From positions 1 through 55,971 of the forward strand of contig CADCWO010000121.1 of assembly GCA_902806435.1 (NCBI GenBank): a DNA stretch of 55,971 nt, in the 5' to 3' direction. Shown piece by piece: positions 37,805-42,659 of the stretch. The notes under the pieces were generated by a model. The model did not search any database, was not told where the DNA came from, and saw only the letters and a list, made by a program, of their open reading frames with translations. The first letter of the stretch is position 1. Each line of letters begins with the position of its first letter. Position numbers and translations under genes: made by a program. The DNA is from an uncultured Synechococcales cyanobacterium (GTDB lineage: Bacteria > Cyanobacteriota > Cyanobacteriia > Thermosynechococcales > Thermosynechococcaceae).

Positions 37805-38578
37805 TTAGGCGACTGCCAATGCCTCCTGCCCCTGTCCTCGCAGCAGATCGATTAATTCATCCCGATAGTCATGAAATTTGGAGTGTCGTTTAATCGTATG
37901 GCTGCGTTCCGGCAGGTTGATCGAAACTTCTTTGCTCACGGTGCCAGGGCGGGAACTCAAAGCGTAGATCCGGTTAGAGAGCAGAACAGCTTCCTCCACG
38001 TCATGGGTAATCATGAAGATTGTGATGTTGGTACGCTCCCAGAGGTCTAGGATAAAACTGTGCATTGATTCTTTGGTGTGGATATCTAGCGCACCAAAAG
38101 GTTCATCCATCAACAGAATCTTCGGTTCCGAAGTCAGGGCGCGGGCGATTGCAACCCGTTGTTTCATCCCCCCTGATAGCTCCTTGGGCAGTGACTGGGC
38201 AAACTTTGTTAACCCCACCACGTCCAGATAATAGCTTGCTTTTTGCCGCCGTTCCCGCTTCGGTACACCCTGCAGCTTCAGACCAAATTCAACGTTTCCT
38301 TGCACGCTCATCCAGGGGTAAAGTGTGTAGTGCTGAAACACCATCCCTCGGTCTGGGCCGGGTCCGGCGACGCTTACCCCATCAATTTTGACATCCCCAG
38401 TGGTGGGGGTGTCCAGCCCGGCAATCTGCCGTAGTAAGGTAGATTTTCCCGATCCAGAGGCACCAACCGTGCAGATAAATTCCCCCTGCTCAATAGACAT
38501 ATTAATGTCCTTAAGGACAACTAACTTTCCCTTCTTCGTACTGAAGTGTTTGTGTAGCTTGGTAATTTGGAGATACAT
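37805..38578 (-). CDS. ABC importer ATPase, probable guanidine uptake system
   Basis: This 257-residue ATPase of the nitrate/sulfonate/taurine type powers the importer encoded just upstream. It has Walker A GASGSGKST, the Q-loop FQHYTLYPWMSV, signature LSGGMKQRV, Walker B ILLMDEPFGALD and the switch His in MITHDVEEAVLLSNRI. It is the third gene of the operon (binding protein, permease, ATPase) behind a guanidine-I riboswitch. The substrate assignment comes from the riboswitch, not from this subunit. The 124-base gap from the permease holds no terminator I can see. Confidence 0.87.
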   Translation of the reverse strand: MYLQITKLHKHFSTKKGKLVVLKDINMSIEQGEFICTVGASGSGKSTLLRQIAGLDTPTTGDVKIDGVSVAGPGPDRGMVFQHYTLYPWMSVQGNVEFGLKLQGVPKRERRQKASYYLDVVGLTKFAQSLPKELSGGMKQRVAIARALTSEPKILLMDEPFGALDIHTKESMHSFILDLWERTNITIFMITHDVEEAVLLSNRIYALSSRPGTVSKEVSINLPERSHTIKRHSKFHDYRDELIDLLRGQGQEALAVA

Positions 38579-38702
38579 GAGTTAAACCTTCGAATGGAAG
38601 AGAAAGTTGGCTGATAGGTTTTAAAAAACCAGTTTATCCAGGGGCGTTGCTGTAAAATGGGCGACATTTTAGAGAACTTGTCGTCAGCATGGTGAATCGG
38701 AA

Positions 38703-39545
38703 CTAACGCTTTTGGCTGGCCCAGCGGCAGGACACTCGCAGGAAATACTGAAATAGCAAGTCAAAAGCCAGACCAAAGATTCCAATCACAATTAGACCGA
38801 CAAATATTTCATCAGTTTTGAGGAAGCGGCCGGCCACACTAATTCGACGGCCCAAGCCTTCAGTGGCGGCAATCAGCTCCGAAACAATTACCAGCTGCCA
38901 AGCAGCGGCTAAGTTGATCCGACAAGCATCGATGATGCCGGGTAAGACATGGGGGAAAATTACTTGCAGCAGTGTCTGCAAACGATTGCCTCCCAAGGTA
39001 TAGGTGGCTTCAATCAGATCCTTAGGGACAAATTTCACTGTATCCATGACCATCAGAGAGTTGAAGAAAAACACCCCAATGAAGATCAGAGTAATCTTCG
39101 GTTCTTCCCCAATGCCCAAGTAGAGGATCAGCAAAGGAATAAAAGCAGGGGCTGGCATATAGCGCATTAAGCCAAACAGAGGCTCTAGCAAAGCACGAAT
39201 ACTAGGAAAGCTACCCATCAGTACCCCAACTGGGATAGAAAAGAGAGCTGCCATCAGAAACCCTACGCCAACCCGCCACAAACTAGCGACCGTGTCTTTC
39301 TGAATATCTCCCGTGCTCCAAAGCCGCTGGAAAGCTTGCAGAACATCAGCGGGAGAGGGCAGAAATGTCGGATCAACATTACCAAGTGTTGTGACCAGCC
39401 ACCACAACAGCAGTGGTAAGGCAATGGATGTGATAATTAAACCCGCGTTAAGAGGTTTGGGAATATCTTCGCCAATTCGCCAGAAAACGGTGGAGCGTAA
39501 AGTTTTGGAGGTTCTTGCTCCAACTGATCCAGGATTTTGACGCAT
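38703..39545 (-). CDS. ABC importer permease, probable guanidine uptake system
   Basis: This roughly 280-residue membrane protein has about six helices and the inner-membrane-permease loop EATYTLGGNRLQTLLQVIFP that docks on the ATPase. It belongs to the SsuC/TauC/NrtB group. ATG 39545 (MRQNPGSVG) is used; ATG 39572 would add 9 residues. It sits between the binding-protein and ATPase genes. The first hydrophobic stretch is LNAGLIITSIALPLLLWWLV near residue 30. Confidence 0.87.
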   Translation of the reverse strand: MRQNPGSVGARTSKTLRSTVFWRIGEDIPKPLNAGLIITSIALPLLLWWLVTTLGNVDPTFLPSPADVLQAFQRLWSTGDIQKDTVASLWRVGVGFLMAALFSIPVGVLMGSFPSIRALLEPLFGLMRYMPAPAFIPLLILYLGIGEEPKITLIFIGVFFFNSLMVMDTVKFVPKDLIEATYTLGGNRLQTLLQVIFPHVLPGIIDACRINLAAAWQLVIVSELIAATEGLGRRISVAGRFLKTDEIFVGLIVIGIFGLAFDLLFQYFLRVSCRWASQKR

Positions 39546-39617
39546 GACTGGACTCCGGGTAATGAGGTTCAATGGTAAGCGGTTCGACCAGATTGGCTCT
39601 AAGTTTCGACCGCCAAC

Positions 39618-40697
39618 CTAACTCTTCTTTGCTTTCTCGGCGTACGCTTTGACAAAGCGATCATCGAATAACTTGCTCAGGTCCGGCTTGTTCTTGGCAA
39701 GGCCAACCTTATTCAAAAACTGAGACATTTCATTGGCTGAATAAGTGAGGGAAGACCTGGTGTTACCGGGCTGGAAAGCTTTCAAGTTTTCTTCCACTGT
39801 GAAAATCTTGGTCCCTTTCGCGTAGTCCTTGTACTCATCAACGCTAACTCCTGCTCGCTTGGCCATGATTGCCATAGTCTCGTCTGGATTAGCCTTGATG
39901 TAGTCTAGGGTGGCAAACCAGGAATCTACCATTGCTTGCACCTGCTCTGGGTGGTCGTTCACAAACTTGCGTGTAAATACTAAGTGGTCGGGAATTGCCC
40001 CCGGAAAGTCTTTGGAGCTAAAAAGTTCTTTACTGCCAGGGAGTTTTAGCGCCTGGGTGGTGAAGGGGGCAAACACCCCTACAGCATCAACTTGTCCGCC
40101 GACAAACGCTGCTGCTGCTTTGCCAGTTTCTAGCGGCACGAATTCAATATCCTCTGGCTGCATGCCTGCTTTCTCCAATCCCAGTAGTAGCAGGAAGTGA
40201 TCCACTGTCCCTTCTTCTGCAGCGACTTTTTTGCCTTTTAGGTCCGCGACAGAGTTGATTCCCTGCTTGGCAATAATTTTGTCATTGCCTGTAGAGTTGT
40301 CATTCACCAGCACTACCACCTGATCGGCACCGCCTGCGATCGCGCTAACAGTATCGTTCAAGGTTTGGCTGTTGGCATCAATTTTCTCCGTTGTCAAAGT
40401 GTTAATCGATTCTAGATAGCCATCGAACCATTGCAGGTTGACGGAAACTTTGTTTTGATCGAAAATTTTCTGCTCTTCGGCAACCTGCCAGGGGAACCAG
40501 CCGGGCCAGGCACTAAATCCCAGGCGCAGTCCATTCCCTCCAGAAGAAGTACTAGAAGACATCTGGCTGGCGGGGTTTCCACAGCTGATGATCAAGGTTA
40601 AGCTGGACAGGAAAAGTACACTATAGATTAGTAGCGATCGCTGCAGGCGGGTCTTTAACCATCGCTGCCAGACAGTGGGTAAGCTTTGCAGTTTCAT
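39618..40697 (-). CDS. ABC importer substrate-binding lipoprotein, probable guanidine uptake system
   Basis: This 359-residue protein is a periplasmic binding protein of the nitrate/sulfonate/taurine (NMT1/SsuA-like) fold. A signal peptide ends in the lipobox IISC (cleavage before Cys about residue 39), so it is lipid-anchored. The mature part begins LRLGFSAWPGWFPWQVAEE, with the segments INSVADLKGKKVAAEEGTVD, FVPLETGKAAAAFVGGQVDA and FAPFTTQALKLPGSKELF. Its annotation would normally read nitrate/sulfonate/bicarbonate, but the guanidine-I riboswitch 200 bases upstream points to guanidine as the ligand. It is the first gene of the operon. The long leader holds the switch and its terminator. 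Confidence 0.88.
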   Translation of the reverse strand: MKLQSLPTVWQRWLKTRLQRSLLIYSVLFLSSLTLIISCGNPASQMSSSTSSGGNGLRLGFSAWPGWFPWQVAEEQKIFDQNKVSVNLQWFDGYLESINTLTTEKIDANSQTLNDTVSAIAGGADQVVVLVNDNSTGNDKIIAKQGINSVADLKGKKVAAEEGTVDHFLLLLGLEKAGMQPEDIEFVPLETGKAAAAFVGGQVDAVGVFAPFTTQALKLPGSKELFSSKDFPGAIPDHLVFTRKFVNDHPEQVQAMVDSWFATLDYIKANPDETMAIMAKRAGVSVDEYKDYAKGTKIFTVEENLKAFQPGNTRSSLTYSANEMSQFLNKVGLAKNKPDLSKLFDDRFVKAYAEKAKKS

Positions 40698-40897
40698 TTC
40701 AGGTCCTTAGAGAATTCATTCATAAGTTATTGAACGCCAGCAGCTCAATAGAAGGGTAGTTGGTTAGTAGCCGATTAAGGGATGGTCGTTACTTCTGTTA
40801 AACCTCTGGTTCCGAGGAATTTATTGTCCAGATAAGGGGATTGTTCTTCAATGTCTGAGAAAATTAGGATAATTGAATCAAAGTTTTGCCGCAATTC

Positions 40898-40947
40898 ATA
40901 CAAAAAGCCCAAGAGAATACACTTAGCGTGAATCTCCCGGGCTTTTC
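40898..40947 (-). terminator. Intrinsic terminator, expression platform of the guanidine-I riboswitch
   Basis: On the minus strand AAAAGCCCGGGAGA (40947-40934) pairs with TCTCTTGGGCTTTT (40917-40904), a 14-base-pair stem that counts two G-U pairs, followed by T-rich TTTTTG. The 5' arm is part of the conserved 3' element of the aptamer, so ligand binding and terminator formation exclude each other. Guanidine should therefore let transcription continue. Confidence 0.88.
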
Positions 40948-41070
40948 TCCCGCCGTGCGACTAGCTTAAGCTTCCTTAGTTGGCTTCCCACCAAGAATCC
41001 CAATTCTAGCTGCTTCTCTCGGACCAGGCGCTTAGCGTCAATCTGCGTTAAACCGGAACCCTAGAAGCAA
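40934..41070 (-). ncRNA. Guanidine-I (ykkC) riboswitch
   Basis: Read on the minus strand, the three conserved boxes of the ykkC-yxkD aptamer are present in order: CTAGGGTTCCG (near 41064), CTGGTCCGAGAGAAG (near 41020) and CACGGCGGGAGAAAAGCCCG then GGAGA (40955-40934). This family binds free guanidinium. It precedes a binding-protein/permease/ATPase importer and carries a terminator as its switch. An internal near-repeat is visible: AGATTGACGCTAAGCG and AGATTCACGCTAAGTG. The boxes are too close to consensus for a chance match. Confidence 0.93.
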
Positions 41071-41141
41071 ATATTTTTTTCGTGAGTTTGGCTTGATTAA
41101 CTGAGCCCAAGCCCCTAGCTCCAATTCAACAAGTGGCTATT

Positions 41142-41184
41142 ACTTTAACCAAATCACTTGTCTAAGGTGTGTATCAAAGCATAC
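41142..41184 (-). promoter_or_regulatory. NtcA-type promoter of the guanidine importer operon
   Basis: On the minus strand GTATGCTTTGATAC (41184-41171) is a perfect GTA-N8-TAC, followed after 23 bases by TAAAGT (41147-41142), a TA-N3-T -10 box. That is the layout of NtcA-activated class II promoters, turned on when 2-oxoglutarate is high and nitrogen low. It lies about 75 bases before the riboswitch and just after the end of the DUF2256 gene. Given its spacing it is unlikely to be chance, but a real NtcA site needs a binding test. Confidence 0.72.
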
Positions 41185-41192
41185 CAAACAAA

Positions 41193-41369
41193 CTATGATT
41201 TTTTCCCCGGTAAAATGCTATGTCGTTTATACCTGCGGCAGCGATCGCTACAATAGACGACATCATCCCAAACTCTTTCCCACTTTTTACGCCAGGTAAA
41301 AGGGCGACCACAGACAGGGCAGGTTTTTTGGGGCAAGTTCTGCTTTTTCGGTTTCTTGCTTTTTGGCAC
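41193..41369 (-). CDS. DUF2256 zinc-ribbon microprotein
   Basis: This 58-residue protein begins at GTG 41369 ([20 protein letters not shown]), preceded by AGAG. The [20 protein letters not shown] core with Cys17, Cys20, Cys40 and Cys44 (CPVC and CSDRC) is typical of DUF2256, a small basic zinc-ribbon family with no assigned function. It ends [13 protein letters not shown]. In-frame TAG codons bound it on both sides, so the frame is well fixed. It is too short for a normal gene caller's default. The importer promoter starts 8 bases after its stop. Confidence 0.85.
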
Positions 41370-41370
41370 C

Positions 41371-41561
41371 TCTAAAACCTACGCGGTTCAACTTTCCAAT
41401 CTAGTAGCCAAGAGCCGTCAGAACTATCCAGCTAAGTAGTATTTAGCCATCACCCTTCCAGCACGATAAATGGCATTAATCTGCTGTAGCAAAGCCCTCT
41501 TCTGGCCAGGATTGACAAGTTTAACTATCCAAATACCTTAGAATCGCCAAAGCACTACGCT
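41371..41561. other. Intergenic between DUF2256 and cobW-like gene
   Basis: No gene is seen. The 191 bases hold no clear hairpin or operator that I can name. The DUF2256 promoter should lie here. Confidence 0.3.
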
Positions 41562-42659
41562 CTATTTCCCAAAGCCTTTCCCCCGGTTTCCAGACGGCAG
41601 ACAGACACATTGCTCTAACTGCGATCGCAATGTCTCGTGGTCTAACCCTTGACCAATTAATACCAGTTGATTTTTGGGCGCACCTTTCCACTGGTCGTCA
41701 TCTAAAGAAAACCGCTTACCGCTGAGGTGGAAGATATGACGCTTGGGGCTTTCATCAAACCAGAGGATGCCTTTGGCTCGGAACACATTAATGGGTAGTT
41801 GATGGTCTAAGAAATCCTGAAACTTTTTGATCGCAAAAGGGCGATCGCTTTGAAAGGAAACAGACGTAAACCCATCATTTTCCAGGTGGTGAGAGTGCTC
41901 GTGATCATGATGGTCGTGATGGTGCCCATGATCATGATGGTCATGAGAGTGCTCGTGATGGTCATGGGAAGTAGGACTATCTTCCAACGCTTGTGGCTGG
42001 AAGTATTTATCCGACTCGAATAAACCGATACTCAAGATCAGGGATAGCGGAACTTGACCTCGAACGGTCCGGATAATTCGTGCTCCTTCCTTGAGGTCAC
42101 GCAGTCTCACTTCCAGAGCATCTAGATCAGCTTCATCCACCAAATCTGCCTTATTTAGCAAGATAATGTCGCCATAGGCAATCTGACTTTGGGCCGCTTC
42201 GCTGTTGAACAAATCCAAGCTGAAATTCTCGGCATCGACAACGGTGACAATTGAGTCTAAACGAGTCACATCTCGCAGGTCAGTGCCTAGAAAGGTTAGA
42301 GCGACAGGTAAAGGATCAGCTAGGCCTGTGGTTTCTACAACCAGGTAGTCGATCTTCTCAGAACGTTCTAGAACCTTGTAGACCGCATTTACCAAATCGT
42401 TGTTGATCGTGCAGCAGATACAGCCATTGTTCAGTTCCACCATGTCATCACTGGTGGTAATCAGCAACTCGTTGTCAATACCAATCTCACCAAACTCATT
42501 GACCAGAACAGCAGTCTTTAACCCTGCCTGGTTGGTCAAAATGTGATTTAGCAGTGTAGTTTTGCCACTGCCGAGAAAGCCGGTAATGATCGTAACGGGG
42601 AGACCGTGCTTGGGGGTCTCCATAGCTGGGGTTTGACCGTGACTGACTGCTGATTGCAT
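41562..42659 (-). CDS. CobW/Zng1-family GTPase, metal chaperone
   Basis: This 365-residue G3E GTPase has Walker A TGFLGSGKTTLL (residues 26-37), the metal-binding CICC (Cys80, Cys82, Cys83) in ELNNGCICCTINND, the Walker B-type VETTGLADP, and NKADL for guanine specificity. A histidine-rich stretch (about residues 233-262, many HDH/HHD repeats) probably binds Zn or Co and lies between the GTPase and C-terminal CobW domains. Such proteins deliver metals to client enzymes or help cells when zinc or cobalt is scarce. It sits in opposite orientation to cysS. It is not shown to be linked to the guanidine genes, though nickel guanidine hydrolases need metal chaperones. Confidence 0.85.
   Translation of the reverse strand: MQSAVSHGQTPAMETPKHGLPVTIITGFLGSGKTTLLNHILTNQAGLKTAVLVNEFGEIGIDNELLITTSDDMVELNNGCICCTINNDLVNAVYKVLERSEKIDYLVVETTGLADPLPVALTFLGTDLRDVTRLDSIVTVVDAENFSLDLFNSEAAQSQIAYGDIILLNKADLVDEADLDALEVRLRDLKEGARIIRTVRGQVPLSLILSIGLFESDKYFQPQALEDSPTSHDHHEHSHDHHDHGHHHDHHDHEHSHHLENDGFTSVSFQSDRPFAIKKFQDFLDHQLPINVFRAKGILWFDESPKRHIFHLSGKRFSLDDDQWKGAPKNQLVLIGQGLDHETLRSQLEQCVCLPSGNRGKGFGK

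Follow-up and report, generated by a model that had tools for sequence, protein, structure and literature searches.

The window analysed here is a 55,971-nucleotide contig (CADCWO010000121.1) from an uncultured Synechococcales cyanobacterium. Between positions 37805 and 41184 it carries a unit for an ATP-binding cassette (ABC) importer, placed behind a guanidine-sensing riboswitch and a promoter with a predicted binding site for the nitrogen regulator NtcA. An earlier note on this DNA, made from the sequence alone, had described the unit as a three-gene operon for a binding lipoprotein, a permease and an ATPase, and the three genes were found in that order. The features of the unit are:

41171–41184, minus strand: predicted NtcA box, GTATGCTTTGATAC, an exact match to GTA-N8-TAC

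41142–41147, minus strand: predicted -10 element, TAAAGT, 23 nucleotides after the NtcA box

40932–41075, minus strand: aptamer of a Guanidine-I (ykkC subtype 1) riboswitch, Rfam RF00442

40902–40946, minus strand: predicted intrinsic terminator, AAAAGCCCGGGAGA...TCTCTTGGGCTTTTT, with the conserved 3' strand of the aptamer as its 5' arm (minimum free energy fold, z -2.5)

39618–40697, minus strand: substrate-binding lipoprotein of the NMT1/SsuA type, 359 amino acids, lipobox Cys39, Sll1080-type, predicted to bind guanidinium

38703–39545, minus strand: ABC permease (BPD_transp_1), Sll1081-type, gene order conserved among its orthologues in relatives

37805–38578, minus strand: ABC ATPase, 257 amino acids, without a regulatory domain, Sll1082-type, gene order conserved among its orthologues in relatives

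The open reading frame of the permease opens at a TTG at 39572, and the ATG at 39545 is the likelier start. The Sll1080–1082 type is assigned through gene order, the riboswitch and operon-type homologues rather than by direct alignment to Sll1080.

The aptamer matches RF00442 over its full length (model positions 1–107) at 69.2 bits, above the gathering score of 63 (E 2.9e-10), which bears out the guanidine-I riboswitch that the earlier note had seen ahead of the binding-protein gene. This is the only gathering-level Rfam match in the whole window. No related family of the ykkC scaffold and no other plausible RNA family was found at this stretch, even in a scan with relaxed filters. The invariant core of the aptamer is common to 15 other aptamers. 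It resembles the family in core, length and terminator overlap, and differs from it in having an upstream promoter with an NtcA box.

The 3' strand of the aptamer competes with the terminator: in the minimum free energy fold, AAAAGCCCGGGAGA, which contains the conserved 3' end of the aptamer, GCCCGGGAGA, pairs with TATTCTCTTGGGCTTTTT just downstream. Of 92 aptamers drawn from this genome and its relatives, 75 have an equivalent pairing of at least 10 of 11 positions; with the downstream DNA shuffled, the number falls to 4 of 92. Since one strand serves both structures, the switch is predicted to be ON with guanidine. This would be the standard arrangement for a switch that permits transcription with guanidine bound, and Guanidine-I riboswitches allow transcription solely when guanidine is present (PMC11410670). 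One related genome (G008) has a strongly diverged aptamer, scoring 33 bits, upstream of an importer orthologue (L067:4742–4870 and L099:6748–6876, one genome sampled in two collections), with the NtcA box and -10 element intact. This could be decay or an altered ligand.

Upstream of the aptamer, the GTA-N8-TAC box and the TAAAGT element of the earlier note are both present at the spacing given above, the box 95 nucleotides before the aptamer and just past the stop of a small cysteine-rich gene. What makes the box significant is that relatives keep it ahead of this kind of riboswitch, far above chance. The 250 nucleotides before 95 cyanobacterial Guanidine-I aptamers (78 after dereplication) were compared with dinucleotide shuffles (300 runs). 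GTA-N8-TAC was found upstream of 56 of the 95 aptamers, and of 46 of the 78 dereplicated ones, with a shuffle mean of 3.24 and a maximum of 9. The same half-sites with other spacers, from 3 to 14, occurred 1 to 9 times each. A box followed by a -10 element (TANNNT) at 21–23 nucleotides was found in 22 of 78, with 0.22 expected, and the spacing has a sharp peak at 22. In control windows taken from other parts of these loci the box occurred in 2.5% of cases, and in AT-rich control windows in 4.0%. Binomial values for the box overstate certainty, since the loci are related. Divided by unit, the box was found before 14 of 28 that begin with the importer, 23 of 34 that begin with gdmH, and 9 of 14 remaining riboswitch units, mostly of the carboxylase type. 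A spacer of exactly 8 and a -10 spacing such as that found here are typical of NtcA activation, and NtcA itself is encoded in the genome (TIGR03697, 388 bits, cut-off 244.95).

The box could instead be a chance match, with the promoter not under NtcA and only the riboswitch mattering. The loose pattern of NtcA box and -10 element is indeed common, with 154 occurrences in the 4.79 Mb genome and 209 in the reversed control; with no enrichment over that control, the genome-wide count was rejected as evidence. Chance does not readily account for a strong enrichment that is confined, in many genera, to one position ahead of this riboswitch and that shows the exact spacer of 8 and the -10 peak at 22. 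In Synechocystis, ammonium represses sll1077–1082 (PMC10094980), as expected under NtcA control, and we regard a chance match as distinctly improbable. A generic promoter and terminator scan of the leader strand detected neither element, because NtcA promoters have no -35 box and the loop of the terminator may be longer than the scan allows. Among the papers that could be read, none was found to join NtcA with the Guanidine-I riboswitch; Itzenhauser 2025 PNAS or Giner-Lamia 2017 NAR could already report NtcA control or the function of the importer.

The earlier note was correct that the window has no guanidine hydrolase, and the search that it proposed, for GdmH or guanidine carboxylase in the genome, located a GdmH orthologue elsewhere, accompanied by nickel chaperones. 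The genome has three Guanidine-I riboswitches. One of them, on contig C69, is followed by an arginase-family protein (GdmH), hypA and hypB. Against the solved structures of the guanidine hydrolase of Synechocystis (7esr, 7oi1), this GdmH scores 768 bits over 386 residues; the next-best structure match is 9fek (“putative agmatinase 2”), at 584 bits. The alpha subunit of urease is also encoded, so the genome holds a pathway from guanidine to urea and ammonium, and from urea to ammonia. The carboxyguanidine deiminase family DUF1989 was not found in the genome, and a guanidine carboxylase route was rejected for it on that ground.

The third Guanidine-I riboswitch (80.5 bits, contig C26, L004:2168–8382) stands before a second ABC importer, and no exact NtcA box was found before this unit. 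The unit also encodes a metallo-beta-lactamase-fold hydrolase, a creatininase-family protein and a type III glutamine synthetase, and a biuret-hydrolase-like amidohydrolase adjoins. Its binding protein is 29% identical to that of the window; at E 1e-60 it was found in only 3 of the 339 cyanobacterial genomes sampled. This unit may serve another guanidino compound.

The company that the importer keeps was examined in 80 named cyanobacterial loci, collected by search with the window's binding protein. A covariance model derived from 16 Guanidine-I aptamers detected the riboswitch in 67 of them, and several of the loci without one are interrupted by contig ends. The importer is alongside gdmH/hyp genes in 35 of the 80 loci, and alongside a urea(guanidine) carboxylase-family enzyme, its UAAP1/UAAP2 partners, or both, in 22. 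No locus (0 of 80) has both routes. In the carboxylase example L121, TIGR02712, TIGR03425 and TIGR03424 all score above cut-off. Proteins of the carboxylase and hydrolase kinds act on guanidine (reviewed in PMC12186494). Since the importer is kept beside a guanidine-sensing RNA and beside two guanidine routes that differ in their chemistry, guanidine import is the simplest reading. Genomes of the same family have the riboswitch, gdmH, hypA, hypB and the genes for binding protein, permease and ATPase as a single operon in this order, which is that of Synechocystis sll1077–1082, and operon-type homologues with the sll1077–1082 order are ca. 50% identical. Some loci have divergent riboswitch pairs (L113:6350–6513, L121:6211–6319, L085:5485–5648 and similar ones), in which one Guanidine-I switch drives the importer while the other faces away and drives UAAP1/UAAP2 and urea(guanidine) carboxylase.

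A second alternative has another nitrogen compound as the substrate: urea, agmatine or a substituted guanidine (methylguanidine, for example). Guanidine would then act just as the signal, or arise from breakdown. The specificity of the binding protein is a prediction, and the NCBIfam label “putative urea ABC transporter” comes near, at 155.7 bits with a cut-off of 333.9. Yet two unrelated enzyme systems accompany the importer, and guanidine is the characterised substrate that they have in common; annotated urea carboxylases under the Guanidine-I riboswitch were later found to prefer guanidine (PMC12186494). Transport of another compound is thus unlikely, if the least unlikely of the alternatives.

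The importer proteins also have general similarity to those for nitrate, taurine and sulfonates, and an ordinary importer of this kind might have gained a riboswitch by chance. The binding protein has the SsuA/TauA fold and scores above the cut-off of the broad SsuA-family model TIGR01728 (238.5 against 163.5), and nitrate transport is also controlled by NtcA. But all substrate-specific equivalog models (taurine, nitrate, SsuA/TauA subunits) score below cut-off for the importer proteins, and a nitrate or taurine identity taken from family labels was rejected for this reason. Models of the NrtABCD family were below their curated cut-offs as well (ntrB, 81.3 against 209.05; ntrCD, 231.5 against 291.8), and there is no NrtC-type regulatory domain. 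The persistence of the riboswitch linkage in 67 of the 80 loci and the changes in the binding pocket described below also argue against chance acquisition, which we consider extremely improbable.

The binding protein was modelled with AlphaFold from 44 orthologues (mean pLDDT, the predicted local distance difference test, 88.3). The predicted fold is that of TauA (Z 32.3, 2.6 Å over 286 residues) and SsuA (Z 30.1). In TauA, Gln30, Gly61, Gly79 and Thr132 hold the sulfonate of taurine, and Glu106, Thr132 and Asp205 hold the amine (PMC6906117); in X. citri SsuA, Ser141 and other residues hold the sulfonate (PMC3839906). Pocket residues were placed by sequence alignment at ca. 23% identity to TauA and SsuA, with the Gly79 position ambiguous. 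In this alignment, the counterparts of the amine-binding Glu106 and Asp205 are D139 and D237, which are invariant in the 44 orthologues. The sulfonate-coordinating residues of TauA are not retained – an invariant Val165 occupies the Thr132/Ser141 position, Tyr94 occupies that of Gly61, and the Gln of SsuA aligns with Ser62. The QKGSS loop of SsuA is replaced by an acidic loop, EEG-[TV]-V-D, in the orthologues. The apparent loss of anion-holding positions and gain of acidic and aromatic ones fits a cationic ligand.

Taken with the genome's GdmH, the enzymes linked to the importer in relatives and the conserved box, this supports the earlier note's proposal that guanidine is used as a nitrogen source. 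We consider it highly probable that this is a Sll1080–1082-type guanidine importer for nitrogen scavenging, with an NtcA promoter, a guanidine-ON leader, and GdmH and urease downstream of uptake. NtcA binding, guanidine binding, transport and the AND logic of the two controls are parts of that proposal that we infer from comparative evidence. When nitrogen is short, NtcA would act on the GTA-N8-TAC box, ca. 41 nucleotides before the start site, and transcription would start. If guanidine is absent, AAAAGCCCGGGAGA would pair with TCTCTTGGGCTTTTT and transcription would stop. If guanidinium is bound, the AAAAGCCCGGGAGA strand would be held in the aptamer and transcription would continue into the three genes. 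The lipoprotein would capture guanidinium in a cleft of invariant acidic and aromatic residues and pass it to the permease and ATPase. Inside the cell, GdmH, made from its own riboswitch unit with the HypA/HypB nickel chaperones, would cut guanidine to urea and ammonium, and urease would complete the breakdown.

Several observations weigh against this interpretation. About 40% of the related leaders have no exact box. The gdmH unit of this genome also has no exact GTA-N8-TAC box upstream, and uptake and breakdown may therefore not be under common NtcA control in this organism. Two close orthologues of the importer, L065 (79% identical) and L066 (75% identical), have no detectable riboswitch and no exact NtcA box upstream; a riboswitch-associated gdmH is present elsewhere in both genomes. 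The pocket argument depends on alignment at the low identity given above and on a predicted fold, and the D139 position, which is also Glu in SsuA, is not diagnostic alone.

A guanidine operon, its riboswitch and a proposed importer have been described in Synechocystis (PMC8390497, PMC10094980, PMC12186494, PMC12930504), in marine picocyanobacteria (PMC10119275) and in Limnospira (PMC8400943). Guanidine import by homologues of Sll1080–1082 is already proposed in the literature, and sll1077–1082 is induced in guanidine-producing Synechocystis strains (PMC8390497). The sll1077–sll1082 genes of Synechocystis sp. PCC 6803 (GdmH, GhaA, GhaB, Sll1080–1082) and the genes described here share the Guanidine-I riboswitch, gdmH-hypA-hypB and an SsuA/TauA-type importer. 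What distinguishes the present case is the conserved NtcA box, together with a division into two transcription units: the importer and hydrolase genes lie on different contigs, a separate Guanidine-I riboswitch precedes each unit, and the NtcA box belongs to the importer unit, with no exact one at the hydrolase unit. In other bacteria, operons with guanidine carboxylase and carboxyguanidine deiminase (which go under urea carboxylase and UAAP labels) are alike in pairing a riboswitch-controlled ABC importer with a guanidine-degrading route, and this genome differs from them in using the hydrolase, without the DUF1989 deiminase. TauABC/SsuABC and NrtABCD share the binding-protein fold and subunit layout of the window's importer, which differs from the former in its replaced sulfonate-binding positions and from the latter in lacking an Nrt-type fused regulatory domain.

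A general rule is favoured, with modest confidence: cyanobacterial guanidine uptake and breakdown would require both an NtcA promoter and a Guanidine-I terminator switch, whether the unit is of the gdmH type, of the carboxylase type or has the transporter only, with the C26 unit perhaps an additional one for a different guanidino compound. The idea that guanidine serves as a nitrogen source in nature is recent. Conserved control by nitrogen starvation before a guanidine switch suggests that cyanobacteria treat guanidine as food and not only as a poison, with uptake opened only when guanidine is both needed and present. The predicted pocket offers a concrete hypothesis for guanidinium recognition, and many sulfonate and nitrate importer labels could be corrected.

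Directly upstream of the importer unit, also on the minus strand, are genes for the small cysteine-rich protein (ca. 41196–41390) and a histidine-rich CobW-family GTPase (ca. 41562–42659). A metal link between these two genes and the nickel-dependent GdmH is possible.

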